A stretch of 64,000 bases of DNA from the NCBI GenBank assembly GCA_038851035.1, contig JAWCLH010000012.1:1-64000 (forward strand), written 5' to 3'. Below, piece after piece: positions 18,601-48,967 of this stretch. Positions within the stretch are counted from its first letter, which is position 1, and each line of letters opens with the position of its first letter. Below the pieces are notes generated by a model, which searched no databases, had not been told where the DNA came from, and saw only the letters and a program-made list of their open reading frames with translations. The DNA comes from Thermoplasmata archaeon. GTDB lineage: Archaea; Thermoplasmatota; DTKX01; VGTL01. The translations under genes were made by a program, and so were the position numbers.

Positions 18601-19097
18601 TTCTTTGGAATTCTCAGGTCCACCTTGTTCCCGTGGGTGGCGCTCCCCTTTATATCCACAGCGAGGTAGAACTGTTGGTCCTGAAGGAAGGGCATTTTGA
18701 AGTTGAGGCTGAGCACTATCGGGTTCGAGGAAGGAGTGAAATTGGAAGCGAGGAGAGCGTCCTGGGAGGCGTCGAAGCTACCACCGCTCCGGTCAGTCTC
18801 GCAGAAGATGTGGACGGCGGCTAGGTCGCTTATTGATGTGCCTCTGTACTCCACCCGCGCCTCCGTGAAGTACTCGTTGAGGGCGTCATCCCTGAGAGTG
18901 AATGTCAGGATGGTGAGATTAGTGACGCCCGGGGGGGCGAAATCGGGCGTGAGGTCAGCGGATGACCTGAGGGTGATGTTGTTGTTTGGAATTCCCTGGG
19001 CGGGCCCGGGAGGCAGGCCCAGCGCACAGAGTGCGAGGATTGTGGCCAGAAATGCGGCCCCGGCCCTCCGGCTCCCATCCAGTTCGGGCTGCGACAT
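15618..19097 (-). CDS. PKD-repeat surface protein with transmembrane helix and cytosolic DUF835 domain
   Basis: A 1159-residue single-pass membrane protein. Signal peptide at 1-35; then Ig-like repeats each introduced by a PPEGW motif (about 190-420); an FN3-like domain (about 425-520); another Ig-like domain; and four PKD domains (about 610-945), each with the W-E/D-FGDG signature. One helix at about 950-976 ends in RRRQR. The cytosolic tail holds a complete DUF835 domain (about 1000-1159, ending KRKFDRW). The layout is that of a receptor or adhesin carrying a signal inward. A TATA box (TTATAAAGG on the minus strand, near 19117-19127) predicts a leaderless start at 19097. The subtilase gene lies upstream in the same orientation. 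Confidence 0.88.
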   Translation of the reverse strand: MSQPELDGSRRAGAAFLATILALCALGLPPGPAQGIPNNNITLRSSADLTPDFAPPGVTNLTILTFTLRDDALNEYFTEARVEYRGTSISDLAAVHIFCETDRSGGSFDASQDALLASNFTPSSNPIVLSLNFKMPFLQDQQFYLAVDIKGSATHGNKVDLRIPKNELTIDGRTCPGSSIDPSGETVIDAKPPEGWASFQPDGWTNDTSPDCSIRVQDTTSGLNVSSASYQFSTDNGTRWSEWLPAECEGPQGTTAQQTLLARGVPFGNSSETNNLIRFMVRDVVGYLNISPTYYVRVDDSPPEGWRLEAPVGWHTSDRSPTVNVSVADVLSGLNCSSAEASFSVDGGESWSPVPNLTFSGGRVSGAPLVLSLSAARVPFNRESASRNLIRFTIRDIAGNLNSSPSFVIPVDTTPPGAPVMREMSLFTRGTQNNVSWSAPEEVTSGIDRYTLICDDGPDFRNPVAVVDVRNRTFHVFEGLADGVRYFYIVSAVDCAGLQGPPSAPVHSAQDASPPVTELQTEPPEPDGENGWFTSPVRVLLNASDACSGVAHTFYILDGGQLITGRELILESDGEHVLLFWSSDNVGNQERPEERVVKVDRTPPIAVMSVPYPIYLGETALFDGSQSVDAVSHEWEFGDGSGPVKGTVVNHTFNQPGVFRVTLTVRDRAGLTCTTRSDVRVLVRGADYPPSARIASIPTVYTDVPVTFDGSGSTDEDPQTLRYEWDFGDGSGAMGAVVSHVYKKEGTYTVRLRVTDSSGQSDTAYRSIKVFVQGTNLPPLAQITQHNMAYAGEPVIFDASNSSDEDLASASFEWDFGDGGIGRGVLVSHIYSRDGAFVVRLVVRDSMNQSSEAMLAVRVFRRGENLPPVAQFSFRPFSPKVGQEVEFDASLTIDEDSMSLNYSWDFGDGQGALGKVVYHVYHTPGAYTVRLRVRDRGGLTDVYTSELRVAGKGPSEGPEMTRLAILALLIGLLALLSAFAAVVVLRRRQRAPATTPLRGPPKGPPPVVEMGLNYLIDTEKPEPAYDALRRLVSEGARGLLISHTHPKKIPGILETRGIDVLWLSEISDEEAPNIEPSKMDYEMTERILEFIKTHRSSAVVVIDGLELLIQTHGFEKVLEFVHNINEVASLHEATVLVPVNSRALKELEYNQLKRKFDRW

Positions 19098-26300: not shown

Positions 26301-29143
26301 TTGTTGTAGGCCTCGACGGCCTCGTTGACCAGCCTCATCCTCTCCACGATGACGCCACGGTAGAACCAGCCCATCTCGTTGTTCGGCTGGAGCTCCAGGG
26401 AGCGCTTCAGCGCCGCCAGAGCCTCGGTATTCTTCTCAAGGTTCAGGAGGGCCTCGCCTTTGTGGAAAAGAACCTCGGCGTCGTTCTCGTTGAACTTCAG
26501 AATCTGGTCGTATACCTTCGCGGCCTCGACCCATTTCTTTCCGGCGCGCAGGGTCTCGGCCTTGTACCTGTAGGCTATCTCGAGGTCGGGCTTGAGCTTG
26601 ATGGCCATGTCCAGGGCCCTCAGCGCCAGCTCCTCTTTTCCGAGGAAGTGGAGCGCCCTGCCCTTGTTCGTCCAGGCGTCATGGTCCTTTGGGTTCCGGT
26701 CGAGAAGCCAGTCGAAGCACGATATCGCCTCTTCATACCTCCCCAAATTGAATAGCGTATAGCCCTTCCCGTGCCAGACCCTCTCGCTTGGGCTCATCTC
26801 CATCAGTCGGTCGTAGACCATCAGGGCCTCCTCGTATCGCTCGAGGGCGTAGAGGGCGTCGCCCTTCATCTGCCAGCTCTCGACGTCGTCAGGCCTGAGC
26901 TCGAGCAAGCGGTCCAAGGCTTTTACGGCCTCGGCCATCCTGCCTAGAGCATAGTGGGTCCGAGCCATGGCCTTCCAAGCCTCGACGAAATTGGGGTTGA
27001 TCAGCGTGGCGCGGTCGAAGCACTGGATGGCCTCCTCGGGCCTTTTGAGCTTGATGAGAACATCACCCTTCTTGTACCACGCATTGTAGTCGTTGGGGTT
27101 CTGGCGGATGGCGTTGTCGTATACCTCGAGGGCCGCCTCGAGCCTCCCGGCCTTGACTAGGGCCTCCTCCTTCCTCTTCCAGGCCTCGGTGTTCTTCGGG
27201 TTGAGCTTGGTCACCTGGTCCCAGGCGTCAAGGGCGTCCTGGAAGAGGCCGAGCTGCTCCAGCGTCACCGCCTTCTCGAACCAACACCTCTCGCCGCGAG
27301 GCTCAAGCTCCAGAGAGCGGTTGTAGCTCTTCAGAGCGTCCTGGTGGCGGCCCAGCTCTGCGAGGGCGGTTCCCCGATTCAGCCAGACCTCCGCGTCATT
27401 CGGGTTGAGCTTGATTACCATGTCGTAGCACTTCACGGCCTCACCCGGGTTCTTCATTTTGCGGAGGGCAGCGGCCTTGTTCCTCCAGGCCTCCTCGAGG
27501 TTGGGCTTCACTTTCAGAGCCTTCTCGTACGCCTCGACAGCCTCCTTGTACCTCTCGAGTTTGTAGAAAATATTACCCCGGGCGTTCAGGACCTCCGCGT
27601 TGGACGGGTCGATGGAGAGAACACGGTCATATGTCTTTAGAGCGTCCTCGTAGCGCTCCAGACCATAGAGAGCGTGGCCCTTTCCAATCATCCAGGCCTT
27701 CTCGTCGGGGTAGTGGCTGAGGGCCTTCTCGAAGGACCGGGCAGCATCAATGTGCTTCCCGAGCCTGAGCAGGACCTCCCCCCTCGGGCCCCAGACGTCC
27801 TTGTGGTTCGGGTTTAGCTCCGTCACCCTGTTGAAGGCCTTGATGGCGATTCCCCAGTCCCTCGCCTCCTGCGCGAGTAGGCCGAGCTCGTACCAAGCCT
27901 CCCAGTGGGTCGGCTCTATGCCGACTGCCTTATCAAGCGCCTCCATCGCCTCCCTTTTTCTCTGGAAGTGCTTAAGAACCAGTCCCCTCTCGAAATGGGC
28001 CAGGGCGTTCAGGGGGTCTATCTCCAGAACCCGGTCGAAGCAGGAGAGGGCCTCCGCGGGCTTGCCCAGCTTCGTCAGGCCGACGCCCTTCTTGAACCAG
28101 GCGTCCTTGTCTCCAGGGGCACTCTCCAGCACCCGGTCGAAGCACATGACGGCCTCGCTGTACTTGCCTATCTCGTGTAGCGCGTTGGCCTTGTTGTACC
28201 ATGCCTCCATGCGCGTGGGGTTTATCGAAATCGCCCTGTCATAGGCTTGAATCGCCTCCATAACCCTTCCAAGCTTCTTCAGCGCCACGCCCTTGTTTAT
28301 GCAGACATCGACATCGTTGGGGTTGAGCTCTAGAACCTTATCATAGCACCGGACTGCCTCGTTGAACTGGCCCAGGTAATGGTAGGCGACGCCCTTGTTG
28401 TTCCAGGCCTTTTCATAATCCGGTTTGAGCTCAGTGGCGCGGTCGAAGGCCTGTATCGCTTCTATATGCCTCTCGAGGTGGTAGAGCGCCACGCCCTTGT
28501 TGTACCAGGCCTTCTCGTTCTTCGGGTTGAGCTGGAGGGCCTTTGTGTAGCACTCGACCGCCTCCTGATGCCTCTTCATGTCGTCGAGGGCGTTGCCCTT
28601 GTTGTATAGGGCGGTCTCGTAGTCGGGCTTAAGCTTCAGGGCTTTATCGTAGTTTTCTATCGCCTTCTGCAGGTCGCCGTAGCTGTACGCGACATTGCCA
28701 AGCCTCAGATATGTCTCGGGGTTGCCCACGAGCTTCCCGGTCGCCTCTTCGACCTCCTTGACCTTCTGGCTTATCAACTCCACGACGGCCCTGTCGCCCT
28801 TGGCGAGCTGGAGCTTGGCGTCCTTGTCCATGTCCAGCGACACGCCCATCCTGTTCATCAGAAGGTTGAGCTGGTTTGCCATCGCCTCGAGCTGGGCCTC
28901 GGTCAGCGAGCGCACGTTTATGCTCTTGATCTGCTGGACGACGTCACCTTCGGAAACGAAGCTCAGGGCGTCGCCGTATGTCGTCGGGCCCACGGAGATT
29001 GAGGTCGAGGCGCGGGCCGCCGGTCTCCTGCGGAGACCGGACGTGTCGTCGAGCAGGGCTCCACCCGTGATTCGCTGGCCGCACTTCGAGCAGGACTTTG
29101 CGTCCTCGGGGTTCATGAAACCGCACTTGCTGCATCTGGGCAT
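23369..29143 (-). CDS. giant tetratricopeptide-repeat protein with N-terminal zinc ribbon
   Basis: A 1924-residue cytosolic protein. A zinc ribbon at the N-terminus (Cys4, Cys7, Cys18, Cys21) is followed by a 100-residue linker and then about fifty near-continuous 34-residue TPR units (about 140-1880). They show the consensus W.NKG.AL..LGR..EA..CFD.AL...P. A short charged coiled-coil tail (KIKEEERAREKRE) closes it. There is no signal peptide or membrane helix. TPR arrays form superhelical scaffolds for protein partners; the length suggests several simultaneous partners. The frame is unbroken despite 5.8 kb of repetitive DNA, which argues for selection. Confidence 0.92.
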   Translation of the reverse strand: MPRCSKCGFMNPEDAKSCSKCGQRITGGALLDDTSGLRRRPAARASTSISVGPTTYGDALSFVSEGDVVQQIKSINVRSLTEAQLEAMANQLNLLMNRMGVSLDMDKDAKLQLAKGDRAVVELISQKVKEVEEATGKLVGNPETYLRLGNVAYSYGDLQKAIENYDKALKLKPDYETALYNKGNALDDMKRHQEAVECYTKALQLNPKNEKAWYNKGVALYHLERHIEAIQAFDRATELKPDYEKAWNNKGVAYHYLGQFNEAVRCYDKVLELNPNDVDVCINKGVALKKLGRVMEAIQAYDRAISINPTRMEAWYNKANALHEIGKYSEAVMCFDRVLESAPGDKDAWFKKGVGLTKLGKPAEALSCFDRVLEIDPLNALAHFERGLVLKHFQRKREAMEALDKAVGIEPTHWEAWYELGLLAQEARDWGIAIKAFNRVTELNPNHKDVWGPRGEVLLRLGKHIDAARSFEKALSHYPDEKAWMIGKGHALYGLERYEDALKTYDRVLSIDPSNAEVLNARGNIFYKLERYKEAVEAYEKALKVKPNLEEAWRNKAAALRKMKNPGEAVKCYDMVIKLNPNDAEVWLNRGTALAELGRHQDALKSYNRSLELEPRGERCWFEKAVTLEQLGLFQDALDAWDQVTKLNPKNTEAWKRKEEALVKAGRLEAALEVYDNAIRQNPNDYNAWYKKGDVLIKLKRPEEAIQCFDRATLINPNFVEAWKAMARTHYALGRMAEAVKALDRLLELRPDDVESWQMKGDALYALERYEEALMVYDRLMEMSPSERVWHGKGYTLFNLGRYEEAISCFDWLLDRNPKDHDAWTNKGRALHFLGKEELALRALDMAIKLKPDLEIAYRYKAETLRAGKKWVEAAKVYDQILKFNENDAEVLFHKGEALLNLEKNTEALAALKRSLELQPNNEMGWFYRGVIVERMRLVNEAVEAYNKVLALNPKNQEAWSRLEDVLVRAGRFEEALACYDNAIANNPNDYDAWYKKGTVLRRLGRDEEAIQCLDKATMINLNFEAAWFDLGELYLSRKLIDEALRCFERTVDINPDNLRAWQHRGGILYSLGRYMEALPCFDRVLEKDQKNVEAWNNKGNVLFKIDRLEEAIKCYDRALELRPKLEEALQNKATALRSLGRDEDAIRVLDTLIRIRPEDDSLFRTKAELLRRNGRLQDAIICYNKILRLKPKDEEIWFKKGTALHELMKVEEALKCYRRSLKLNPKNEEGWWRVGAIFEELNDTESAIQNYDKALEVNPNYDNAWKSKLDLLERLGRIEEAIECLDKAIQANPSDHSAWNSKGRALRKLNRNSEALECFDSALKIKPDFAEAWWNKGLTLQALGRDGDALDALDRAIELLPSEKELWVAKGNSLTSLKRVEEAIEAYDRALELDAKCVEAWVGRGRAHVEAGQPEEALKAYDRAILIDPNYPKIYFYRGLALNALKRHHDALQAYEKAVELDQKFMEAWLNKGKTHSALGQPREAIRCFDKAIDLDPAREEPWNLKGWELSKLSKIKRALECFDRAIELNPKNGEGWFNKGSLNLQLGRLKEAVECFDKAIDLNPGYDRPWDEKGLALLEMGEVEDALDCFEKALDINSNNAEAWYHKGAALYRLDRAEEAIECFDNALELVPDHHKAWVGKGSALVREGEHVAAIECFDKGLRHGPNYDVGWYSKGSALHDLGLIKEAVKSYHRAISINPSLEDCWVDIGVALHELGNSEAAVTCFDKALDINSKDEVAWMNKGSALIDLNRNEEALRCFERATVLAPKDERTWYNKGVALMNLGDVKHALRCFDIAVNLNEKYVKAHVNRGAALAALNRHEMALDAYEKAIKHDPKFAAAWHNKGRALEHLGRLDEAVAAYEKAQDLSPKDIEIQRDRRICAEKLDKKIKEEERAREKRELEEDARTLREAERRIRPSEIL

Positions 29144-33914: not shown

Positions 33915-36902
33915 TCAGGACTTTCTCCTAAGCAACGCGTAACCCAGACCCGCTATTACAAGGGCCATTCCGACCGCGAGGCCTTCGAAGCCGGGAATTC
34001 CGGTGCCCTTACTCTCCGGCCTGACTTTTATGTAAATGTAATGCCTCGCAACCCCTCCTCGTCCATCTTGAACCTCGAGCACCACGACGTGCTGTTTCCC
34101 GGCGGAGAGTACCTTAGAGAAGGTAGAGGTGGTGCTTCCCGTTGTGGTCTTGAGTAGCGTGCCATCCGCGAGCCTCCAGTAGAATGTGAGCGGGTCGTTG
34201 TCGGGATCGGTGGCATTGGCGGTGAAGGTTATCTTCTTACCCGCATCCACCTCGGTGTTGTTCTGGGGCCATACCTCGTTTATCACAGGGGGCTGATTTG
34301 TTTCGTTGACCGTGATGTTCCACTCAGCGTCTATAAAATCAATTCCATCGCTTATTCTCACCTTTATAACATGCAGGCCTGCATCGTCGAAACTTGCGCG
34401 GTATGTATAGGCCGATGTGCCGAGCTTGGTCTTTTCAACGTCGTCCACGAACCAGATGTATCTGAGTTCGGAGGTCTTATTGTCGATGTCGGCGGCGGAG
34501 ACCCTGAAGGTCATCATCTCTCCCTCGTTCATCATCAGCTGCTCGTAGGGGTCGGGTATCTGGCCGCCCGGAAGGAGGTAGGGCGGGTCGTTTATGTTCT
34601 GGATGCGAATCAGAAGCTCTCCGGAGCGGTTCGCACCTAGCGGGTCTATCGCCCTGAACCTGACGACCTCCTGCGCGGTGAAGTAGTTGGGGGAGGGGGT
34701 AAAGACCGCGCTGCCGTTACCTGCGATATTCACGGTCAGGTTGTCCGAAGCACCTCCGAGGTAGGCAAAGGTCAGGGGGTCGTTGTCCGGGTCGGAGAAT
34801 AGCCTGTTTAGGTCGAAGTAAGACACCTCGTCTTCATTGATTGCGAGAAGGTTGTTTGCCTCAAGATACTCCGGAGGATGGTTCAAGTTCAAAACTGTGA
34901 TGTTGACCGGGTGGATGACCTCCGCACCAGATTTGTCTCTTGCGGTCACATTCACCACCACCACCACATTCTCTTTACCTGGGAAGCTTGGTGCGGTTCC
35001 GAATGTCAACTTGTCGTCCTTTATCCAAGCGGGGAAGGTCGAGTTGTCCACATAAAAAGTGATGTTATCGTCCCCGAACGGAGGCATGTCCGGGTCGGTG
35101 AATACGTTGAATAGGTTGATATCCTTCATTGTGGCGTTGAACTCTCCCTCACGCACAGTGAAGTCGGGAATTCTCGTCTTAATAAGGGGTGGGTCGTTGA
35201 CGGGCAGCACCCTCACATGGACCACCGTTGAGTTGGATTTTCCGTAGAGGTCTGTGGCCGTGAAGGTAATGTCGGCCTCACCGTTCCAGTTCTCGTTGGG
35301 CTTGATGGTTGCTGTCGCCTCCGGGTCCTCGCTCCAATTGTTGTTGATCTTTATCTGGAAGTCCGGATGGCCGCTGGATGTGAATGTCAGGGCCTCACCC
35401 CATTCTTTTGTGAAATCGACGTCGGTGAAGACGCCATTATTAGTTCCGGTGTAGTTCAGCTTTAGGGTGGTGTCGACACCGTCCTCTGGCATCACTATCT
35501 GGGGCGGCTCGTTCTGGATGATGGGGGGTAGCGTCCTGTCTGGGAGGGTGATGTCGAGCTTGTACTTGCACCAGGCGGTCTGAACCGTCCAGTCGGCTAG
35601 GTTGGATATGTTTCCGGGAACGAGCCCTATCTGGGCAATAACACCTATATAATACCAACCCTCCTGCGTCACGTTTGTGGCCAGTGAGGTCACCCGGTTG
35701 AGAATCGTGTGCTCGGGCTTATTGGTCCAAGAGCTCATCAGATCGTATCCCTTCTCCGGATAGGGCGATGTCAGATTCTCGCGATAGATGGAAAGCCTGA
35801 ATATAGCGGAGGACCTCTCTAATAGGGTCATGGTGGCTTGGACGCCCTCGCCTTTTTTCAAATAGACTTTGTACCAGTCGAACATGTCCTCGCCGCGAAT
35901 TACGCTCCCGTACTTTGTCACGGTGGTCTTGCCCTGCTCGTAGGTCACTGGCGTCGCAGTCAGTAAATGGTTGTCGCCGTCGCTCTCTATCTGCGTTTTA
36001 GTCAGGCGAAGCTCATAGTTCTCGGACCTTCCCCCTGAGGTGTTGTAGGCCTGCATATCTAAGTAATACCATCTCTCGCCCGGATAGCAGGCGGCCGCAT
36101 GTACCTCCTCATACTGAACATAACTATCCAACCACCACGAGTGGTTGAGCCAATAGGAGAAGGTCTCGGGCTCGAAGTTCCGAACATAAACATCGCCCCA
36201 AAGTCTCTGCTCTGGTGCCCCAGGCTCGGTAACGTTGACATAAAGATAGTCATTCATCTTTTGGTCGCCTATTGTCTGTTCGCCCGTGAGTTTGAATCTA
36301 TACCACTTGCCAGGATACCATTTCAAGGAGGAGATCTGGCCGGGTATCGTCGCCCCGTACATTCCGCCCGTGCCTATCTTGCTCGTGATATCCTCGGCGT
36401 CGGAATACTGGACATGGAGGATATAGCTGATGTCGCCCGTTCCGGCAATCGGGTTGAGCTGGAGGTAGTAGTCGCCCGTAATAACACACAAGAGGGTGAG
36501 GGCCTCCCACTGCCTCCGGTCGGGATTGTCCTCCCTGTTAGACCATGCTAGTGTATCAAGATGGTACTTGTTGAATGCCTTCAGGATGAGAGCCTGGTTG
36601 TTAAAATTGGTTATTCTGCAGGAAGCGTTGATGATTTTGCCAGCGGGGACATTCCGTAGTACATACGTATCTATTCTGTGGGGATCCCCAAGGCCCGTCA
36701 TGCCCGTCACATAGTCGCCACTGTTCAGCTCCTGGGCCGTCGAAAAATCATCGTTGTTCGAAACGTCTGTGTCCGGTCCCTCAAGAACGTAAACTCTTCC
36801 AGCGTCGTCCCCAAAGGAGACGTTGGAAAGCCCGAGGGTTGAAATGACCATTAACAAGCCGAGCATTAGTCCCTTGGCTGCTCCACCCGAAAGCCTCCGC
36901 AT
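33915..36902 (-). CDS. secreted PPC/cadherin-like repeat protein with PGF-type C-terminal anchor
   Basis: A 995-residue surface protein. Signal peptide at 1-31; then pre-peptidase C-terminal-like (PPC) beta domains (about 35-460); then cadherin-like repeats joined by VNDPPL and NINDPPYL linkers (about 480-790) and two PKD/Ig-like domains. The C-terminus reads GIPGFEGLAVG, a hydrophobic helix and RRKS, which matches the PGF-type sorting tail processed by archaeosortases. A strong GGAGGT lies seven bases ahead of the ATG. It resembles the wHTH-tailed neighbour at 37.1-40.1 kb over the ectodomain, but carries an anchor instead of a cytosolic domain. Confidence 0.85.
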   Translation of the reverse strand: MRRLSGGAAKGLMLGLLMVISTLGLSNVSFGDDAGRVYVLEGPDTDVSNNDDFSTAQELNSGDYVTGMTGLGDPHRIDTYVLRNVPAGKIINASCRITNFNNQALILKAFNKYHLDTLAWSNREDNPDRRQWEALTLLCVITGDYYLQLNPIAGTGDISYILHVQYSDAEDITSKIGTGGMYGATIPGQISSLKWYPGKWYRFKLTGEQTIGDQKMNDYLYVNVTEPGAPEQRLWGDVYVRNFEPETFSYWLNHSWWLDSYVQYEEVHAAACYPGERWYYLDMQAYNTSGGRSENYELRLTKTQIESDGDNHLLTATPVTYEQGKTTVTKYGSVIRGEDMFDWYKVYLKKGEGVQATMTLLERSSAIFRLSIYRENLTSPYPEKGYDLMSSWTNKPEHTILNRVTSLATNVTQEGWYYIGVIAQIGLVPGNISNLADWTVQTAWCKYKLDITLPDRTLPPIIQNEPPQIVMPEDGVDTTLKLNYTGTNNGVFTDVDFTKEWGEALTFTSSGHPDFQIKINNNWSEDPEATATIKPNENWNGEADITFTATDLYGKSNSTVVHVRVLPVNDPPLIKTRIPDFTVREGEFNATMKDINLFNVFTDPDMPPFGDDNITFYVDNSTFPAWIKDDKLTFGTAPSFPGKENVVVVVNVTARDKSGAEVIHPVNITVLNLNHPPEYLEANNLLAINEDEVSYFDLNRLFSDPDNDPLTFAYLGGASDNLTVNIAGNGSAVFTPSPNYFTAQEVVRFRAIDPLGANRSGELLIRIQNINDPPYLLPGGQIPDPYEQLMMNEGEMMTFRVSAADIDNKTSELRYIWFVDDVEKTKLGTSAYTYRASFDDAGLHVIKVRISDGIDFIDAEWNITVNETNQPPVINEVWPQNNTEVDAGKKITFTANATDPDNDPLTFYWRLADGTLLKTTTGSTTSTFSKVLSAGKQHVVVLEVQDGRGGVARHYIYIKVRPESKGTGIPGFEGLAVGMALVIAGLGYALLRRKS

Positions 36903-37107
36903 TCTCTGACCTCCACTTGCCTACGGCTGGACTAATATAGTTCCTCCATTTAAATATTATGTGGGACAAAAATGTAACTGAACGACTGCTAAGCGGCGGA
37001 AGGTGGAGTCCCCTGTGCCCGTTATAGCGTGCCTCCGTGCCTCCCTGCCCACCCCTTCCTGCATAGCCGGGGACGGCTAGGACCATTCCTGACCCCGGGG
37101 AGATGAA

Positions 37108-40080
37108 TCACCAAGCGCGCTCAGAGGGGTAGCAATGGCAACCCTTACCCCTTTTCTCGACACGCACGAGCTTCGCTTCAACCATTTTGGAAATGTGGTA
37201 TGAGACCACCCTTTTACTCAGGCCAGTGCTATGGCATATCTCCTTCTGGGAGATGCTCGGGGTTTTTTTAATGAGCTCGAGAATCTCCTTCTGGACTGGC
37301 GTGAGCTCCACATCGCCCCTCTTTGAGTAGGGCATCTGGGCGGGGTAAAACCTTTTGTAGAGACCATCCCACTCCGAGCGGATGAAGCCCTCTCTCTGAA
37401 GGGTGGAGAGGTGGTAGGTTAGGGTCCCGTTGCCCACTCCCAACCTCTTTTTAATTAGCGTATAGTGAATTCCCGGGTTGCTCTCAACCAGACCGTAGAT
37501 TCGTCCTCTGGTAAAGTGGTCGAGTACCTCCTCCTTATGGAGCTTGGTGTAGAGGGGAATGAAAAGCATCTTAAATATGGCATATTTCCCGTGCTCCGAG
37601 ACGCCAACCAGTACGGCCACCCATGCAGCCAGCCCTACCACGGCAGCGGCCCCCGAAGCTTGTATGGCTCTTGCCGCCTTTGGACCGTTGGGCTCTTTCG
37701 GTTTCTCCAGAATCGTCAGCGCCCAAGTATGGGAGCACAGTAGGCCCTCTGGGTCGCAGGCGACTACCGTCACTATATGATTTCCAGGTGTGAGGGCCTT
37801 GATGGAAAGGGCATTGCCATGTTTTGATGAAGCATTAATGGTCTTCCCGTCCAACCTCCATTCGTAGGAGATGTTCGTTGAATCTGAATCGGTGGCCGTA
37901 ACGCGCAAGACCAGATCTGTTCCCTCCAGCGCGCTTAGGTTCTCGGGTGGTTGGATTGAGATAAAAGTGGGCGGGTCGGGGATGGGCTTCACCACCACCA
38001 TTAGGGTGGCACTGGTTGAGAGCCCTTCTGTGTCCCACGCTTCGATATATATCTCCTCGCTCCCGCTCCAGTTTTCCTTGGGTGTTATGCGGAGAAGACC
38101 GGTTTCGTCGACCGAGACCGAGACCCTGCCCTCATTCCTGAAAACAAGGCTTAGGGACTGGCCCTCGGGGTCGTAGAATAGCTCGGAGATGGCGGGACCG
38201 ACGTGGACTGTGTCCTCGTCAATATGGAGTAGGAACGAGAGGGATGTAGCCATAGGGGGCTTCGGGACCCTGAGCACCCTGATATTGAGCTCGACACTTG
38301 CTTCTGCCCCTGAGGTGTCGAAAGCCCAGACATTGACTCTGTAGTCACCGGGCGGTGCGCGGACCGGACCGCATTCGAGCATGCCACCGGGGTCGATTCG
38401 AAGCTCCAGAGGCGAGGGTGAAACACTGAATGTTAGCTTGTCGCCATAAAACAGGTCAGGGTCTTCAAATAGCTCGGAGACATTGATTAGAGAGGGATAG
38501 GTGACCCCTTCGCTCAGGACAAGGGGCGGGGGAGGTGCTCGCGGGAGAGGCGGGTCGTTGATAGGAAGGACTGTGATTGTGGTCCTCCACCGCGCAGAGG
38601 CGCCCATTGAATCAAGCGCTTTCACCACCAGCTCCTCACTTCCAGACCAGTTCGGAATCGGCACCACGGCAAGCTCTGAGGGGCCGGTGAGCCGCGTCGA
38701 GAGGTGCCCTGAGCCTATAGCGGTAAAGCTGATTCTGTCGCCGTCTGGTAGGTCCGGGTCGCTGAATATCTCACTTAGCTCAAGGTGGAGCTCCGTGTCC
38801 TCCTCTGTATATAACACAAGCGGGGGAGTTGCCACGAAAGGGGGTCTGTTCTCGCGAGCGACCGTAAAGCTGATGCTGTAGGCAGTGGCAGCTGGAGCGT
38901 CGGTCAGGTCCATGGGGTTGGCTATCGAGAGGCCCCACTTTGCCATCAGCGAGAAATAATATATCCCATCTGCCTCAATTCTCCACGCCAGCTCAAGACG
39001 GTCGGTGGTGGCGGCTTTTCCCTTTGGACTCGGCGGGGGGACGAAATTGGTCACGGAACGAATCACAGTGAGCCTCTCATCGAGCAAGAAGAGCTCGAAC
39101 AGTCCACTCCTCCATCCGTCTCGGAGAGAGACCGTGGCGGAGACCGAGTTTCCGGTTTTCCCGCTGAATCTGTACCAGTCGTAGTGGTCCATGGACTGGT
39201 GAATTGTGTCGTTAAATATTGTGGTGGCATAGACTGCTCGAGTACGGGGCGGAAAATCGTCCTCGCCCGGCTGACCGGCCTCAATAGTAATATTTAGCTC
39301 GTACCTGCCGGAGCCGTTGAAGGCCGTGACGAGAATGAAAAAGTAGCCCTCGTGAGGGGCTCGGGCCTCCAGCGCCTCGCTGGGATCCCCCCACCAAGAG
39401 AGGTCGAGGTAGGTGTATAGATGGGAGAGGGGCCAGAGGTCCATCAGGTAGAGGTCTATTGAGACGTCACTCGCAGGCGGAATGGGAGTCTCGTTCATCC
39501 CTGCCCTGAAAATGTCGCCGGCATTGAGCCACACCTTATAAATATCTGACGGATGGTTGGTGTTATTATAGAGAGTGCCAGAGTAATGCCCACCATTTTT
39601 AACCTCGTATGGCTCCTGGATATTGACGGTTAGGGTGTAATTTCCGGAACCACCTCCAGCCTCAACGAATACCCTAATGTAGTGGGATCCGGTCAGGGGA
39701 GTGACGACGACAACAGTCTCGTAACGGTGGGGCGAGGTCGAGTAACCCTCCCTGAAGGGGATACCCTCCCTTATCGTGTAGACCTCAAGCGAGGCGTTTA
39801 AAAATGGCCAATCGAGGGTGTAGAGGGTGGCGTTCAGGACCTTCCCCTTCTCCGCCTGAACGCTGAACCAGTCGACGTCATCCACTCCCTCGCCGAGCCA
39901 GTACCGGCCGGTCTCCCCCGACTTCAGGGGGTGGGCCGTTGGAAGGTCATCGTTGGGCTCGACCCCCTCGTCCCCGCCAGCTCGACTGGCGGGGCTCTCG
40001 CTCGGGACGGGAATGGTAAAGAAGGCTCCAGCGATTGTAGCGATTAGGAGCAATACTGTCGCTGAGCGCATCTGCCCCAT
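37108..40080 (-). CDS. PPC/cadherin-like surface protein with cytosolic tandem winged-helix domains
   Basis: A 990-residue single-pass protein. A signal peptide (GQMRSATVLLLIATIAG) is followed by PPC domains, then cadherin-like repeats with VLPINDPPLPRAP- and VKPIPDPPTF-type linkers (about 400-810), and one helix (AAAVVGLAAWVAVLVG, about 830-850). The cytosolic tail of about 140 residues holds two winged-helix domains: IYGLVESNPGIHYTLIKKR-GVGNGTLTYHLSTL and EILELIKKTPSISQKEICHSTGLSKRVVSYHISKM. Those helices resemble ArsR/MarR-type readers and predict a membrane-bound transcription regulator. A TATA box at 40106-40117 favours ATG 40080 over the longer frame beginning at 40131. Confidence 0.88.
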   Translation of the reverse strand: MGQMRSATVLLLIATIAGAFFTIPVPSESPASRAGGDEGVEPNDDLPTAHPLKSGETGRYWLGEGVDDVDWFSVQAEKGKVLNATLYTLDWPFLNASLEVYTIREGIPFREGYSTSPHRYETVVVVTPLTGSHYIRVFVEAGGGSGNYTLTVNIQEPYEVKNGGHYSGTLYNNTNHPSDIYKVWLNAGDIFRAGMNETPIPPASDVSIDLYLMDLWPLSHLYTYLDLSWWGDPSEALEARAPHEGYFFILVTAFNGSGRYELNITIEAGQPGEDDFPPRTRAVYATTIFNDTIHQSMDHYDWYRFSGKTGNSVSATVSLRDGWRSGLFELFLLDERLTVIRSVTNFVPPPSPKGKAATTDRLELAWRIEADGIYYFSLMAKWGLSIANPMDLTDAPAATAYSISFTVARENRPPFVATPPLVLYTEEDTELHLELSEIFSDPDLPDGDRISFTAIGSGHLSTRLTGPSELAVVPIPNWSGSEELVVKALDSMGASARWRTTITVLPINDPPLPRAPPPPLVLSEGVTYPSLINVSELFEDPDLFYGDKLTFSVSPSPLELRIDPGGMLECGPVRAPPGDYRVNVWAFDTSGAEASVELNIRVLRVPKPPMATSLSFLLHIDEDTVHVGPAISELFYDPEGQSLSLVFRNEGRVSVSVDETGLLRITPKENWSGSEEIYIEAWDTEGLSTSATLMVVVKPIPDPPTFISIQPPENLSALEGTDLVLRVTATDSDSTNISYEWRLDGKTINASSKHGNALSIKALTPGNHIVTVVACDPEGLLCSHTWALTILEKPKEPNGPKAARAIQASGAAAVVGLAAWVAVLVGVSEHGKYAIFKMLFIPLYTKLHKEEVLDHFTRGRIYGLVESNPGIHYTLIKKRLGVGNGTLTYHLSTLQREGFIRSEWDGLYKRFYPAQMPYSKRGDVELTPVQKEILELIKKTPSISQKEICHSTGLSKRVVSYHISKMVEAKLVRVEKRGKGCHCYPSERAW

Positions 40081-40105
40081 GCAGTTCGAATATTGGGCCC
40101 AATCC

Positions 40106-40117
40106 ATATTAAAATAT
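40106..40117 (-). promoter_or_regulatory. TATA box of the wHTH-tailed surface protein gene
   Basis: The AT-rich element ATATTAAAATAT (plus-strand reading) is centred 32 bases upstream of ATG 40080, giving a near-leaderless transcript. Confidence 0.5.
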
Positions 40118-40292
40118 GCTGGTACGAGCATGTAACTATCCCATCATCCGTTTCGCCGCCATTCGCTATTTGAGAGATGGCTGCGTAAGCATCCCCGAGC
40201 GGGATAGTCAGTGCTGCGGCTGGGTGAATTGATTCGGTAGGGAGTCTGGGCCGACCTCCCGCCCCCACTGCTCCGGAAGAGACGATGCCCTC

Positions 40293-43200
40293 CTACCACT
40301 TGTACCTCTGAAGGAACTCCGGGCGGCTCTCGTCTGCATAGTACCACTTGCCCATTATAGCAACTAGTGGCTCGTTTTGTGGAGACATACCCCTCTCCCC
40401 ATCAACCACCATACTCGCGAGCTCTTCCGGACTCAGGTATTGAAGTTCGAGCGGGAGCATGGGGCGCATGGAGTTTATCGTCCTGAGGACAGTGTCGTAA
40501 TCCGCCTGGGGCTGCATTCCAACAGGGGGTTCCAGCTCAAGAGCTATCCTGCCGCCGGTTTGCTCCTGTTCTATTGCTCCGACCCCAACCTCCGTTCCGG
40601 GAATGGTGGAGCTCGGCGTTTCTGTCTCGGGCGGCGCGACGGTCTCACCTTCGGGAATCCAGCGCGGTCCGGCCGGCTTTGTCTCTTCCTCTTCCATTTC
40701 TGGCCTCTCGCCTCCTCCGGACAATTCACTGGGAACGGCCTCCTCTATTGTCTGGGCAGGGCTTGGCGGCATCGCGGCCCCTTCTTCCAGCGGCTTTTCC
40801 CCTTCTACAACCGTTTGCGGCGCGGAGGAAGCTTCCGCAGCGACCTCCCCTAGCGCCCCCGGAGCAGCTCCTTTCTTGTCTTGCGACGCCAGATACTCCC
40901 TCTCGAGACGCTCGGCTTCTTCTAGAGCTTCTTTTTCCTCCTCCTTTTCCTTTTTTCCCTCCACTTTACCTTTTGAAAGAGCTGTCGGGGACGGCCCCGC
41001 ACCCCGGGCAGGCTCCTTTTCAAGGGGATTAGGAGATGCGGCTCCAGCGGGCGGTAGGGAAGGGGGTTGGACAAGAGGGACACCGGACCTCCTTTTCCTT
41101 GACCACAGGAAACTCCCCGCGCCCACGGCTGCCCCAATAATCATCATTACAATAATTATTATCACCATCTCACCGCTCCCCGCGGAAGCGGTGCTCAGGG
41201 GCTCATTCCTGACTACAATCCGGAGCTCGACCAGCTCCGAGTATCTCTCGCCGTCAAAGGCCCTAACCCGGAGCGTGTGGGGCCCATTTTTCTCTTTGGT
41301 GGTATCCCAGGTGAACGCCCAGTTCTCTGTGCCGGAGGCGTCCTGCCACGAGCCGTTGTCAATACGAATCTGAACGAGCGTGACGCTCTTTCCGGCCTGC
41401 TTGTGCAGCGCAGTCCCAGATATCACAACCTTCCCCCTCACCGTGGCTCCCGGAGCCGGTCCCGAGACGCTCACTTTAATGGGGCTCTCATCGACCCAGG
41501 GCAGTCTAACTCTCGTGGTAGCCTTGGCTACTTCCGGATAAGCTCCAACGTTGCCTGCAACATCGGCGGCTCTGGCCCTGAACGAGTAGGTCTCATTGTG
41601 TCGCCCGGTAAAGACAGCGGATGTGTAATTCACCCCCGTTAGCCAGTCGGTCCATGGACCTTCTCCCACCCGGACCTGGACGTCGTAGTATTTAACTCCG
41701 CTCGTCTCGTCAGCGCCATTCCAACGCACCGTGAAGCTCTCCGTCTCCGTCACTGGAGGGAGGGTCGAGACCACACATGAGGGGGGAGTGCCATCATAGA
41801 TGATGGCCTCCGAGACCGGATAACCGGCGTTTCCGGCTAGGTCACGCACCTTTGCGTAAACGCGGACCAGGCCCTCTTGGGAAGGGAGTTCGATGGTGCA
41901 TAGGGTTCTGAATGGTTGCCACGATTCACCCACGAAGTTCGAGTTCGTGGATATCATCATCTCTGCGACGCCGTAATTATCTGAAGCCTCTAGCTCCAGC
42001 GTCACGGCGCGGTCTATAGTGTATTCCGCACCACCGTCAATGGTCAGGGAGAGAGACGGAGGGGTTGTGTCTAAAATAATGCTATCGCTCTCGAGGCCCG
42101 AGGTATGGCCGGCGGCGTCCCTGAAGACCGCATAGACTCTTCTCTCCCCATCGCCCGGTCTGAGCTCCCACACCATGCTGGGCTGATAGTCAATCCACTC
42201 CGCATCGTCAAGGGACTGCCTGTTGCTGAGCATCACATCCGATATCCCGGACAGGTCGTAAGCATCTAGGGTAAGTCGTACCGTGGTCGTGGCTGTGAAC
42301 TCTGCCCCGCCATTAATAACCACGCTCCCCCTAGGGGGGGTCTCATCAAGAATGATGGAGTCGCTGCAGACCTCCGACTCCCAGCCGTTGGCGTCTCTGA
42401 ATTTTGCATAAACGGTCTTCTCTCCATCGCCCGGAGATAAAATCCACCTGACCGAGCTCTGGTAGGACTGCCATTGAGCACCACTGAAGGTAGAGTTCTC
42501 GCTCAGCATCACTTTCATTACGCCGTAGCTGTCCGTGGCCCTAAGCTGTAGTTCGACCTCCCTCTGAGGGGTTATGGGTGCCCCGAGGTCGATAAGTATG
42601 GAGCCTATGGGCCTGGTTGTATCGACGTCCAGCTCGATGGCGGTGTCCTTGATGTCGCCCTCATAATCGGTCACCCTGGCCCAAATCGTGTGGTGGCCGT
42701 CGGGTAGCTCGATTGTCACGTACCAGCTCTCCGTCCCCTCGGCCGGTATCCAGGTCTGTTTGCTGTCAGTGCTGACCTCGACCTTGAGGACATTTGCACG
42801 GTAGCTCAGCTGTATCTCTTTGAAAATGGGGCTTGACAGGCCTTGGGGACTGGACATCTCGAAAGAGTATTGGATATAGCGCCGGGCCTCCGGCAGGTTA
42901 GAGCTCTGGCCGTTGGTTACTGTTGTCCATGGTGTGGGATAAGACATGTCCGCGCTCGCCGAGGAGCGAATTCTTACAGAGAGCTGGGTACCGGCGGGGA
43001 CCGTCTCTAACCATGCCACCTTCGTCAGGGTGGGCGCTGGAGACCCGGTGTCATACACCTCTGAGAGGTACCGGCCCTCTTTGCTGAAAAAGCAAGTAAC
43101 ATTGTCCCACACAGACCCGACGACGCCTCCATACATGTAGACCCTGCTCCGGAAAACGCACCGCGGGCTATTCAAAGTGATCGAGTAGCTGCCCAGCTGG

Positions 43201-43910
43201 GTGCTTCCACGGTAGGCGTAGACGCGGCCTCCCTCATACACCAGGGAGTATGTGTGGACCCCCGTCGCTGCGTCACCGAGAGCGGTCTCGCAAGCTGCGC
43301 CGGAGACATTGTAGGCGAGCACAGTCTTTGGCTGGAGCCCATAGAGTTCTATATCGAACGCAAGCTCCAGAAGAATTTCGTTACCGGTGTCGTCCCTGAA
43401 CCCGAAGCCTGCGCGATATCCAGTCCCGGCGCCGCTGAACGACCATAATTCAGCGGAGACTCGGCTAGAGACCATGCCGAGGGTGCTGACACCCGCACGC
43501 GCCGTCCAGCATCCCTCCGAGTTTCCAGGGCCGCCTATCACCAGCCTTCCGCCGGTCTCAGAGACAACCACTCCCCCGAATTCCTCCTTCGTCCATTTCG
43601 AGGCGTCGAGCTCGCCGTCATTGAAGTCGTCGTATATGACAGTCTGAAGTCTCATGTCGCCATTGGGCTCCATGGTCAGATTCTCCGTAGTGCCGGTGCT
43701 GAAGTCCTCAAAAGTTGTCTGAGTCCAATCCTTAGGCGAGCCCAGCGCGCTGCCGGTAACATTCACGTGGGACGTGAGCAAAACCGCCCCCTCCTCAGGA
43801 GCGGTAATTGAGACCGATGGGTCGCCGGGAGTGTTGAAGGAGAGGAGGCATACCAGAATCAGGGAGCAGGCGAGGAGATTAACTCTTCTCACACAGTTCG
43901 GTAGGAACAT
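40293..43910 (-). CDS. Ig-like repeat surface protein with long acidic cytosolic tail
   Basis: A 1205-residue single-pass protein. Signal peptide at 1-29 (RVNLLACSLILVCLLSF). A lectin/LamG-like region (about 70-260) follows. Then come several copies of a 90-residue Ig-like unit marked by DGGAEYT starts and GDGE..VYA..RDAAG ends with a DSIILD-TPP linker. One helix (MVIIIIVMMIIGAAVGAG) lies near residues 905-930. The cytosolic tail of about 270 residues is Glu/Pro-rich and ends in a defined segment of about 70 residues (LRTINSMRPMLP...EFLQRYKW) that may be a folded domain. The repeat unit recurs in the 1742-residue protein at 48.9-54.1 kb. ATG 43910 fits a TATA box at 43933-43943. Confidence 0.85.
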   Translation of the reverse strand: MFLPNCVRRVNLLACSLILVCLLSFNTPGDPSVSITAPEEGAVLLTSHVNVTGSALGSPKDWTQTTFEDFSTGTTENLTMEPNGDMRLQTVIYDDFNDGELDASKWTKEEFGGVVVSETGGRLVIGGPGNSEGCWTARAGVSTLGMVSSRVSAELWSFSGAGTGYRAGFGFRDDTGNEILLELAFDIELYGLQPKTVLAYNVSGAACETALGDAATGVHTYSLVYEGGRVYAYRGSTQLGSYSITLNSPRCVFRSRVYMYGGVVGSVWDNVTCFFSKEGRYLSEVYDTGSPAPTLTKVAWLETVPAGTQLSVRIRSSASADMSYPTPWTTVTNGQSSNLPEARRYIQYSFEMSSPQGLSSPIFKEIQLSYRANVLKVEVSTDSKQTWIPAEGTESWYVTIELPDGHHTIWARVTDYEGDIKDTAIELDVDTTRPIGSILIDLGAPITPQREVELQLRATDSYGVMKVMLSENSTFSGAQWQSYQSSVRWILSPGDGEKTVYAKFRDANGWESEVCSDSIILDETPPRGSVVINGGAEFTATTTVRLTLDAYDLSGISDVMLSNRQSLDDAEWIDYQPSMVWELRPGDGERRVYAVFRDAAGHTSGLESDSIILDTTPPSLSLTIDGGAEYTIDRAVTLELEASDNYGVAEMMISTNSNFVGESWQPFRTLCTIELPSQEGLVRVYAKVRDLAGNAGYPVSEAIIYDGTPPSCVVSTLPPVTETESFTVRWNGADETSGVKYYDVQVRVGEGPWTDWLTGVNYTSAVFTGRHNETYSFRARAADVAGNVGAYPEVAKATTRVRLPWVDESPIKVSVSGPAPGATVRGKVVISGTALHKQAGKSVTLVQIRIDNGSWQDASGTENWAFTWDTTKEKNGPHTLRVRAFDGERYSELVELRIVVRNEPLSTASAGSGEMVIIIIVMMIIGAAVGAGSFLWSRKRRSGVPLVQPPSLPPAGAASPNPLEKEPARGAGPSPTALSKGKVEGKKEKEEEKEALEEAERLEREYLASQDKKGAAPGALGEVAAEASSAPQTVVEGEKPLEEGAAMPPSPAQTIEEAVPSELSGGGERPEMEEEETKPAGPRWIPEGETVAPPETETPSSTIPGTEVGVGAIEQEQTGGRIALELEPPVGMQPQADYDTVLRTINSMRPMLPLELQYLSPEELASMVVDGERGMSPQNEPLVAIMGKWYYADESRPEFLQRYKW

Positions 43911-43932
43911 GATTGGAGAATTCCTGAACGCG

Positions 43933-43943
43933 TATTTAATATT
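43933..43943 (-). promoter_or_regulatory. TATA box of the Ig-repeat surface protein gene
   Basis: TATTTAATATT (plus-strand reading) is centred 28 bases from ATG 43910, predicting a leaderless transcript. It excludes the longer frame starting at 43949. Confidence 0.55.
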
Positions 43944-44032
43944 ATTCAATGAACAAGCTTATATTATCCTCCGCTAGTAAGGATTTTCACGGTGCGACAG
44001 GACAGGGAGCTCTCACCGCAGTGGGTGGTCGC

Positions 44033-46423: not shown

Positions 46424-48967
46424 ATGCTCCGCAGAGAGAGAGCGGGATGTCTCCTGCTCGCCGCCGTGCTCATCGCATCGGCCCCGGTCAATATCGGCGG
46501 GGAGGAGCAGACGCTCTTCGCCGGCGGCCTTCCGGACCAGCTCATTCTGTTCCCTCCCGGGGGTGGCGAGAACTCCTCCGTCGCCGTCGAGCTGCCGGCG
46601 GGGGTCGAGGTCCTCAACGCCTCGATGGACCTTGAGGGCAGGCGGGCCCTGAACGGCTCGACAAACTACACGACCGACTTCTTCATTCCGCAGAGGAACC
46701 TGGCGTGGGCAGGCAACGCCAGCGTTCTACCCCCGGTTCTGCCCCCGGCGAGCTATGAGGCCCTGAATATCACGGCTGCGCCGGGAATCAAGAAGAGCGA
46801 CGACGTCAGGTACGAGAGCTACACCATCAACTCCGCCCCCTACCATCTCTTCGAGTTCTACGTCGGTGAGGCGAATGTGAGCGCATTCAACATCACCTGG
46901 GAGGGCATAGGCTTCACCCAGCCCCAGATCGGCTTCGGAGACAACGGCGCAACCATCTATCTCTGGGACCGCGTCGCGAGGGTCTGGGTAGCGATGGACA
47001 CCCAAGGCACGCCCGAAGTGCCCATGGAGGTTGTCCTGACTGCGAGCTCGACGGTGAATCCCTTGAGATACATCGACCAAGAAGGGTACATATATGCTTT
47101 CGTGGCCCCCAAGCGAATTCAATACAGTAACGAACTCGAGACGGATTATGTTAAGTTGACCTTTGGCGCGTACTACGCGTCCTACCCGGAGAACCTCACT
47201 CTCGACGTGGGCGCGGACGGGAGCGTGGAGTGGGAGCGCCGGGGGCCCCTCAACGCAACCGAGATCTTCTCCGGGGCCGCCTTTGTTAGCGCGCTTCAGA
47301 AGGCTGTGGACGCAGCCCATGGCGGCACCGTGCGAATTCCCCTCAAATTCACTTCCACCAGCGGCGGCCTGCTCTTCCTCTCCAACCTGAGCATCGGCTA
47401 TGGACCGAAGGACCTGCCTCCCGCGCTGGTCAGGAGCATCCCCGCTCTCGAGCTCCCCGAGGACGGCAACATCACGGGCGCTTTGGACCTGAGGGAGCAC
47501 TTCAGCGACGACGGAGGGGCCGGCAACCTGAGCTTTGAGTTCGTGTGGGAGGGCGGGAGCGGCGAGGTCGAGGCCGTGATAGAGGGCGGGGTGCTCAGCC
47601 TCTTCGCCCGGGCTCCGGACTGGAACGGTGACCTCAGGGCGCACGTGAACGCTACCGATGCCAAGGGTCAGGTCGCGGTCTCCAACTCGTTCAAGGTGCG
47701 GGTTATGCCCGTGAATGACCCGCCGGTGCTTGAGCCCGTGGGCGAGCTCAGGGCGAGGGAAAGGGTCCCATTCGAGTACGACTTCAACGCCACCGATGTG
47801 GACGGGGACAGGCTGACCTACTCGCTGAACTCAAGCATTATGAGCATCGACCCATCGACCGGGCTGGCGCGCTTCACACCCTCCGCTAGGGACATAGGCG
47901 TCCACATGTTGAAAGTGGCTGTCGAGGACGGGGCGGGGGGCAGGGACTCGCTCAACTTCACCCTCGTCGTAGAGAACGTGAACGACCCTCCAGTGCTCTC
48001 CCAGCCTGAGGACGCAACGGTGGAGGAGGGGCAGGAGTTCACGATGAGACTTGAGGCCCGGGACCCGGACGTTGAGCTCGGTCTCGATGCCTTGAGATTC
48101 TCGGACGACTCGCCGCTGGTGACGACCACTCCGGAGGGTCTCGTACGCTTCCTCCCGGACGACGAGCACGTCGGCGTCCACAGGGTCAACTTCACTGTGA
48201 CGGACTCCACCGGTCTCTCGGACACGAAAGGCATGACGCTGACGGTCCTCAATGTCAACGACCCGCCCGTGCTCCTGAACCCCGGCGACCTGACGGCGGA
48301 GGAGGACCGGCCGTTCTATATGAAGCTCAACGCCACGGACGAGGACGCGGGAGACTCGCTCAGGTTCAGCTCCTCGACATCCCTATTCATTATAAGCCAA
48401 GCCGGGGAGATATCCTTCACCCCGACCCAGAAAGACGTCGGAAAGCACCTTGTCCGCATCACAGTGACAGACAGCGCAGGGGCGAGAGCGTCGGTGGAGT
48501 TCAACCTGACCGTCCTCAATGTCAACGACCCGCCTGAGAGGGTGAGAATTCTGAGTCCTCTGGAGGGCCAGAGCTTCATCGAAGGAAAGGAGGTGACGCT
48601 CGAGGCGGAGGCGGAGGACGAGGATGGGGACGAGCTGACCTACACCTGGTACTCCGGCGGGAGCGAGCTGGGCAAGGGGAGGGTGGTGAGCACCAAGGCC
48701 CTGAAGGCCGGCGACCATTCAATCACAGTCAAAGTCAGCGACGGAAAGGAGACCGTTTCCTCCGCACCCGTCGCAATAAAGGTGAAGAAGCCACCCGGGA
48801 AGAAAGGGGGCTTCATGCCCGGCTTCGAGGCCGCCGGCCTCCTCGCCGCTTTGCTCCTCCTCTGGAGCGGAAACCGATTCCGGAGGAGCCGGGCCGGGCG
48901 CGGCCTTCTGACTAGGTCGCCCTGGGGCCCTTGTAGAGCCCGCTCCTCCCGCATCCGGGGCAGGTGA
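46424..48967 (+). CDS. cadherin-like repeat surface protein with PGF-type anchor
   Basis: An 847-residue secreted protein. Signal peptide at 1-24, then a unique N-terminal beta-rich domain (about 30-330), and a row of cadherin/dystroglycan-like repeats joined by VNDPPV linkers (about 335-715) ending in a PKD-like domain. The C-terminus has a basic, glycine-rich linker (KKPPGKKGG), MPGFEAAG, a hydrophobic helix and RFRRSRAG, a PGF-type anchor. Unlike usual anchors, about 20 Arg/Gly-rich residues follow; these are encoded opposite the end of the gene at 48912-54140. GGGTGA five bases before ATG 46424 decides the start over GTG 46415. Confidence 0.85.
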   Translation: MLRRERAGCLLLAAVLIASAPVNIGGEEQTLFAGGLPDQLILFPPGGGENSSVAVELPAGVEVLNASMDLEGRRALNGSTNYTTDFFIPQRNLAWAGNASVLPPVLPPASYEALNITAAPGIKKSDDVRYESYTINSAPYHLFEFYVGEANVSAFNITWEGIGFTQPQIGFGDNGATIYLWDRVARVWVAMDTQGTPEVPMEVVLTASSTVNPLRYIDQEGYIYAFVAPKRIQYSNELETDYVKLTFGAYYASYPENLTLDVGADGSVEWERRGPLNATEIFSGAAFVSALQKAVDAAHGGTVRIPLKFTSTSGGLLFLSNLSIGYGPKDLPPALVRSIPALELPEDGNITGALDLREHFSDDGGAGNLSFEFVWEGGSGEVEAVIEGGVLSLFARAPDWNGDLRAHVNATDAKGQVAVSNSFKVRVMPVNDPPVLEPVGELRARERVPFEYDFNATDVDGDRLTYSLNSSIMSIDPSTGLARFTPSARDIGVHMLKVAVEDGAGGRDSLNFTLVVENVNDPPVLSQPEDATVEEGQEFTMRLEARDPDVELGLDALRFSDDSPLVTTTPEGLVRFLPDDEHVGVHRVNFTVTDSTGLSDTKGMTLTVLNVNDPPVLLNPGDLTAEEDRPFYMKLNATDEDAGDSLRFSSSTSLFIISQAGEISFTPTQKDVGKHLVRITVTDSAGARASVEFNLTVLNVNDPPERVRILSPLEGQSFIEGKEVTLEAEAEDEDGDELTYTWYSGGSELGKGRVVSTKALKAGDHSITVKVSDGKETVSSAPVAIKVKKPPGKKGGFMPGFEAAGLLAALLLLWSGNRFRRSRAGRGLLTRSPWGPCRARSSRIRGR

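Follow-up and report, generated by a model that had tools for sequence, protein, structure and literature searches.

A membrane-anchored tandem winged-helix regulator of a Thermoplasmata archaeon and its surface twin share a putative operator

The regulator gene and its surface twin

We analyzed a window of 64,000 nucleotides from a Thermoplasmata archaeon (GenBank assembly GCA_038851035.1, contig JAWCLH010000012.1), to which all positions refer. A gene for a membrane-anchored protein with a large ectodomain and two winged helices (the regulator) is followed directly downstream by a gene for a second surface protein (the twin). The features of the two genes and of their promoters are as follows.

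37108..40080 (-): membrane-anchored tandem winged-helix regulator, 990 aa (ORF list, Pfam, hydrophobicity, AlphaFold)
40000..40080 (-): signal peptide of the regulator (hydrophobic segment 24-42 of the 1007-aa ORF)
37672..39999 (-): regulator ectodomain, PPC-like beta domains followed by cadherin/Big_9/PKD (Pfam, ectodomain model, sequon excess)
37597..37656 (-): single transmembrane helix of the regulator (hydrophobicity, AlphaFold)
37525..37599 (-): conserved cytosolic juxtamembrane helix with the motif TExG[KR]Y...PLY[TS][RK] (column conservation, 63 copies)
37327..37512 (-): winged helix 1, PF24266, HTH_HVO_0163_N (Pfam, AlphaFold)
37123..37305 (-): winged helix 2, HTH_24/MarR_2-like (Pfam, AlphaFold)
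40120..40136 (-): putative operator copy in the regulator's own promoter, GTTACATGCTCGTACCA (motif searches; no binding data)
40107..40115 (-): TATA element of the regulator promoter (sequence)
33915..36902 (-): surface twin, a co-linear ectodomain paralogue without winged helix and with a C-terminal anchor (ORF list, Pfam, alignment)
33918..34001 (-): PGF-like C-terminal membrane anchor of the twin, IPGFEGLAVGMALVIAGLGYALLRRKS (sequence)
36962..36978 (-): putative operator copy in the twin promoter, GTTACATTTTTGTCCCA (motif searches; no binding data)
36949..36957 (-): TATA element of the twin promoter (sequence)

The mechanical ORF of the regulator spans 37108-40131 (-) and encodes 1007 aa; residue and Pfam numbering below follows it. 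A start at 40080 (residue 18), giving 990 aa, fits best, because the TATA element and operator (40107-40136) fall within the longer ORF. Four ectodomain matches exceeded their Pfam cutoffs (PPC at residues 85-154, Cadherin_4 at 420-473, Big_9 at 625-712, and PKD at 741-798). In the tail, HTH_HVO_0163_N (PF24266) was matched at residues 874-935 (50 bits against a cutoff of 31) and HTH_24 at residues 946-990 (59 bits against 21.9), with HTH_20, MarR_2, and HTH_5 also above cutoff. The protein remained below the NCBIfam cutoff for the ArsR/SmtB metalloregulator NF033788 (37.9 bits against 55). It has two hydrophobic segments (residues 24-42 and 826-844). Glycosylation sequons are in excess in the ectodomain (14 in 770 residues where 4.5 would be expected, a count that no shuffle out of 2000 reached), and the cytosolic part contains one. 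Both the hydrophobic segments and the sequon distribution support an exported N terminus and an ectodomain outside the cell, an inference from sequence alone in the absence of localisation data.

Structure models agreed with this layout. The AlphaFold2 model of the membrane-plus-tail module, built with 63 homologues, had a pLDDT of 91.6 and consists of a membrane helix (2-25), a second long helix (27-65) that is predicted to enter winged helix 1 without a break, and two complete winged helices. Foldseek searches with this model returned ArsR, MarR, and tandem winged-helix proteins, and the best solved-structure sequence match to winged helix 1 was 5duk, a putative DNA-binding protein in the PDB (E = 1.4e-6). 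In the full-length model (overall pLDDT, 69.9), the ectodomain is all-beta and well formed, with a fold that resembles cadherin and Ig ectodomains. Its confidence is moderate (pLDDT of about 70-90) because the alignment had only seven sequences. An earlier sequence-only reading of this gene had described a membrane-anchored protein of about 990 residues with a PPC/cadherin-like ectodomain and two adjacent winged helices as its C-terminal tail. Both descriptions held, the former by Pfam, hydrophobic segments, and models and the latter by Pfam, AlphaFold, and the ArsR/MarR matches in Foldseek; a C-terminal segment that is not winged-helix, which would have refuted that reading, can be ruled out.

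The twin is 26-27% identical to the regulator over about 860 aa. Its PGF-like anchor did not reach the cutoff of TIGR04126 (PGF-CTERM): the window's twin was not listed, and its homologues scored 10-17 bits against 24.5. An archaeosortase A gene is present in the same genome (G000), with TIGR04125 above cutoff at G000:C23. The pair is kept in a second genome, G005, where the regulator ectodomain is 45%, the module 68%, and the twin 68% identical, and in G017, a genome of another family, the locus has two consecutive twins. The regulator and its twin(s) are thus syntenic in three genomes from two families. Across the wider family of regulators described below, same-strand genes adjoining regulators look secreted more often than those elsewhere (29/73 versus 105/841; P = 3e-8).

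Several other large genes lie in the window, all on the minus strand. Directly upstream of the regulator, 40293-43949 encodes a 1218-aa surface protein with Big_7/Big_13 domains, a membrane helix, and a cytosolic tail that is long and charged. The 1159-aa product of 15618-19097 has PKD ectodomain repeats and a C-terminal DUF835, making it another receptor-like fusion. The remaining two are a 1924-aa protein with dozens of TPR repeats after a CxxC zinc-ribbon-like N terminus (23369-29143) and a 1742-aa protein that combines FG-GAP and fibronectin type III repeats with a zinc-ribbon-like C-terminal end (48912-54140).

A receptor-like family in Thermoplasmatota

To the sequence-only reading, such a protein was unusual for an archaeon, and this needs correction: within Thermoplasmatota it is not unusual, as paralogues with other large ectodomains reach at least 10 per genome in many lineages. 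In the 2.7-Mb genome of the window, a search for the 180-residue module gave 11 matches. Besides the regulator itself, they include five that carry large ectodomains, a short one with additional membrane helices, one that is disrupted, and two that are soluble. A paralogue at L049 16553-18436 (G000:C3, near 134 kb) has its module split over two frames and is either a pseudogene or an assembly error. Matches to the module were found in 115 of the 145 Thermoplasmatota genomes sampled, and 24 genomes had at least 10 copies; these counts also take in soluble relatives. A plain scan of genome contigs with a single protein as the query found no relatives. With a close alignment as the query, relatives were found, and the best 80 loci in the named genome collection were all from Thermoplasmatota except for one chimeric record. 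That record (L107; CP070825.1, named Aminicenantes bacterium) was rejected as a bacterial member. We judged it, from its sequences, a likely chimeric assembly because an archaeal-type S15 ribosomal protein lies beside the module, with bacterial genes adjoining.

Of the 105 intact copies, a membrane helix was present at the module in 95, of which 88 also carried a hydrophobic segment at the N terminus, giving the order hydrophobic segment, ectodomain, membrane helix, and tandem winged helices. The sequence N-terminal of the module has a median length of about 640 residues, with a maximum of about 2660. Paralogue ectodomains vary and include PQQ beta-propellers with PKD, Big_7, CARDB with NPCBM-associated, and carboxypeptidase-regulatory-like domains, among others. 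A constant tail and membrane edge are thus combined with a variable outer part, the layout of a receptor family. The orthologues in G005 and G017 keep the hydrophobic segment, so that homologues lacking the membrane segment, which would have counted against the sequence-only reading, do not refute it; in the G017 orthologue, the segment is less pronounced and did not pass the threshold of the family-wide count. More distant, soluble tandem winged-helix relatives, which that reading did not take into account, exist in haloarchaea. Outside Thermoplasmatota, we also observed the regulator architecture on a small scale in a 235-aa Methanomethylovorans plasmid protein (L165 2258-2965), in which a hydrophobic stretch at the N terminus precedes a short outer part, followed by a membrane helix and two winged helices in tandem.

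We then compared columns across 63 copies. In the membrane helix, only hydrophobicity is conserved. The cytosolic edge is strongly conserved, with T-E-x-G-[KR]-[YF] followed by P-L-Y-[TS]-[RK] and then the start of winged helix 1, and is the most conserved stretch outside the winged helices. Conservation across homologues, which the sequence-only reading had proposed to examine, differs between the two domains. The recognition helix of winged helix 1, NG[TS]Lx[YH]HLxxLE, is nearly invariant (G83 and H88 are invariant; N82 is found in 59/63), whereas that of winged helix 2 is more variable. This pattern would be expected if all copies still bind DNA, with one half-site common and the other specific, although there are no binding data.

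The conserved membrane edge bears on how a signal might reach the winged helices. One alternative is regulated proteolysis, in which an ectodomain signal would cut the winged-helix pair free to act as a soluble factor on the same operators. The soluble haloarchaeal relatives and the two soluble copies in the window's genome suggest that the module can exist free. However, the membrane-edge motif, modeled as one helix running into winged helix 1, fits mechanical coupling better than it fits a disposable linker, and no conserved cleavage motif was seen. We therefore regard proteolysis as unlikely. Our preferred reading, signaling by the anchored protein, matches the proposal of the sequence-only reading that a signal passes through the helix without a kinase. 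That proposal is compatible with the continuous helix of the model and the conserved juxtamembrane motif and may be correct, but it has not been shown.

A shared motif upstream of TATA

The bipartite motif GTTAC-N6-GTNCCA sits directly upstream of TATA in both the regulator and the twin promoters, ending 6-8 bases before the TTTAA core. Both sites are kept in all three genomes that hold the locus, i.e., in six promoters (the regulator and the separately promoted twin). When we searched these six for all 5-mer/gap/6-mer patterns, GTTAC-N6-GTNCCA was the sole common pattern, and none of 300 shuffles gave any. Combined with the TATA core, it occurs in the three whole genomes at this locus only (at two promoters each in G000 and G005 and at one in G017); the operator site of the G017 regulator is not followed by a strict TTWAA. 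When TATA is not required, the three whole genomes yield seven matches, six of them at these promoters. The seventh, the third in G000, lies inside an unrelated ORF and was taken as chance.

The motif was identified post hoc, and the locus is found in only three genomes. Duplication could also explain the likeness of the promoters, although in G000 and G005 this likeness is limited to the motif and TATA; a longer stretch is common to the two in G017. Because the two promoters of one genome have little else in common in G000 and G005, the motif appears to have been kept and not merely copied.

Related elements were found in front of other regulators. A CCAAT-TATA element lies upstream of 25/95 regulators (26%) versus 27/761 other genes of the same loci (4%; P = 3e-12), and scrambled control words were mostly not enriched. 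The enrichment persists after regulators are clustered at 60% identity (P = 4e-7) or 50% identity (P = 0.005), although most regulators lack an exact match. Several of the other genes with the element are adjoining surface genes (L103, L109, and L113). The typical family site is TTAGA-N7-ACCAATCT-TATA, and the TTACA-N7-[AC]CCA of the window has equal spacing. A residue in recognition helix 2 partly tracks the distal half-site (TTNGA was found with Thr in 17/42 and with Val in 2/27), a difference that shared ancestry inflates. Other tests were weaker or negative. Applied as a weight matrix to other regulators, the window motif gave only a weak signal (P = 0.02), the broader CCAAT-TATA test being much stronger. 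TTNGA-N7-NCCAAT was not specific as a strict genome-wide pattern, and 24-base stretches common to regulator and neighbor promoters were not above background for most pairs. In the L042/L053 branch, no single operator was common to regulator and neighbor. There, the promoters of the surface genes adjoining the regulators conserve an element, CAACAAACTWTTWATAT (two sites in G000 and one in G005), that was not seen in the promoter of the neighboring regulator. This second surface-gene-specific element was observed (L209, L207, and L208) only upstream of secreted surface genes.

It is possible that a different factor binds GTTAC-N6-GTNCCA. In the extended form of this objection, the motif belongs to a different soluble regulator of surface genes, and the tail acts elsewhere or serves mainly as a chromosome tether at the membrane. 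Binding by the regulator does rest on association only, and CAACAAACTWTTWATAT is an example of a surface-gene element that was not seen in the promoter of the neighboring regulator. Against this, the motif is limited to promoters of the regulator and twins in three genomes, variants recur upstream of regulators family-wide, and the tracking by helix 2 would be unexpected for an unrelated factor, even if ancestry inflates it. We consider the extended objection unlikely and continue with the regulator as the factor that would bind the motif.

The position of the motif also bears on the direction of control. Archaeal promoters have their TATA about 26 bases and their BRE about 34 bases upstream of the start, and factors that bind upstream of BRE/TATA are mostly activators, while those over or downstream of it are repressors (PMC4158304), a rule to which CsmR and EarA also speak (PMC13286277). 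As the operator is directly upstream of BRE/TATA, activation is likelier than repression. Repression is the main alternative and remains possible: the operator would abut BRE, and its occupancy would block TFB/TBP until the ectodomain is engaged. In its favor, the motif touches the BRE position, given where it ends relative to the TTTAA core, and Pfu TrmB represses from a BRE/TATA site (PMC4158304). Published upstream sites mostly speak against it, and an autoregulated receptor that is needed for sensing would be easier to run as an activator, although both modes could work.

A proposed receptor-transcription factor and known systems

We propose that the regulator is likely receptor and transcription factor in one membrane protein (a one-component system), acting on its own gene and on that of the surface twin and probably activating both; its binding to DNA, the signal it receives, and the direction of its control are inferred. 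The architecture, the family, the synteny, and the shared operator are shown by sequence. That the regulator binds the operator, acts while anchored, and activates, and what it senses, are inferred without binding, expression, or localisation data. In the proposed scheme, the N terminus would be exported, leaving the PPC/cadherin-like ectodomain outside, and one helix would cross the membrane and continue as the conserved juxtamembrane helix into winged helix 1, offering a direct mechanical path for a signal. The membrane-held pair of winged helices would bind GTTAC-N6-GTNCCA upstream of BRE/TATA of its own gene and the twin and would most likely activate transcription by aiding the recruitment of the basal factors TFB/TBP. 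The state of the cell surface would set DNA binding, plausibly through contact with the twin or through a ligand common to both.

The general kind of protein is already known. Transmembrane transcription regulators (TTRs) are widespread; Demey et al. (2023, PMC10269533) counted 1,384 archaeal members, about 4 per archaeal genome. The regulator meets the TTR criterion of a DNA-binding domain and at least one membrane helix within one protein, whereas control of transcription from the membrane is inferred only from the operator and synteny. Like TTRs, which are mostly single-pass and act without a kinase, it combines both parts in one polypeptide (PMC10269533). Unlike them, it has a signal peptide, then a very large ectodomain, and a tandem winged helix at the C terminus, and its family reaches at least 10 copies per genome in many Thermoplasmatota. 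The main text of the TTR paper (PMC10269533) does not mention its group. ArnR and ArnR1 of Sulfolobus are likewise archaeal membrane-bound one-component proteins, helix-turn-helix regulators of surface structures, but have an N-terminal HTH, HAMP-like and sensor domains, two C-terminal membrane helices, and no large ectodomain (PMC6396743); by Pfam and hydrophobic segments, the regulator does not fit this layout. ToxR/CadC-type regulators are single-pass, with the winged helix inside and the sensor outside, as in the regulator; they are type II proteins with an N-terminal OmpR-type winged helix. The regulator is instead type I, with the domain order reversed (signal peptide and ectodomain N-terminal, two ArsR/MarR-like winged helices C-terminal). 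ToxR-like regulators often pair with an adjacent membrane partner, and co-component systems are listed in PMC10269533; here, in contrast, the neighbor is an ectodomain homologue. HVO_0163-type proteins (PF24266) resemble the regulator in winged helix 1, which is above the Pfam cutoff, and in tandem layout, but haloarchaeal plasmid members are soluble and about 170 aa long, and 5duk is an isolated 77-residue domain. We found no description of the regulator family in the open-access literature searched; subscription journals and preprints were mostly outside its scope, so a description elsewhere is not excluded.

What sets the regulator apart from TTRs is its topology, tandem winged helix, ectodomain size and variety, copy number, and ectodomain twin, and what is new here is a probable target, its own promoter and that of the twin, inferred without binding data. 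Because the putative operators at 40120-40136 and 36962-36978 are short and unique, DNA binding, so far an annotation, becomes straightforward to test. A bolder reading, which we offer only as a possibility, is that Thermoplasmatota hold a large repertoire of receptor-transcription factors whose adhesin-like ectodomains report directly to surface genes, with the twin sensed by homophilic contact and a family-wide bipartite operator by TATA that offers one half-site per winged helix. Signaling from the surface to genes is poorly known in archaea, and few membrane-bound archaeal regulators (ArnR and ArnR1) have been studied. The receptor-like family described here is phylum-wide and in some lineages has tens of members in a genome, with adhesin-type ectodomains and now with predicted DNA targets, and the ectodomain twin hints at what such a receptor might watch.
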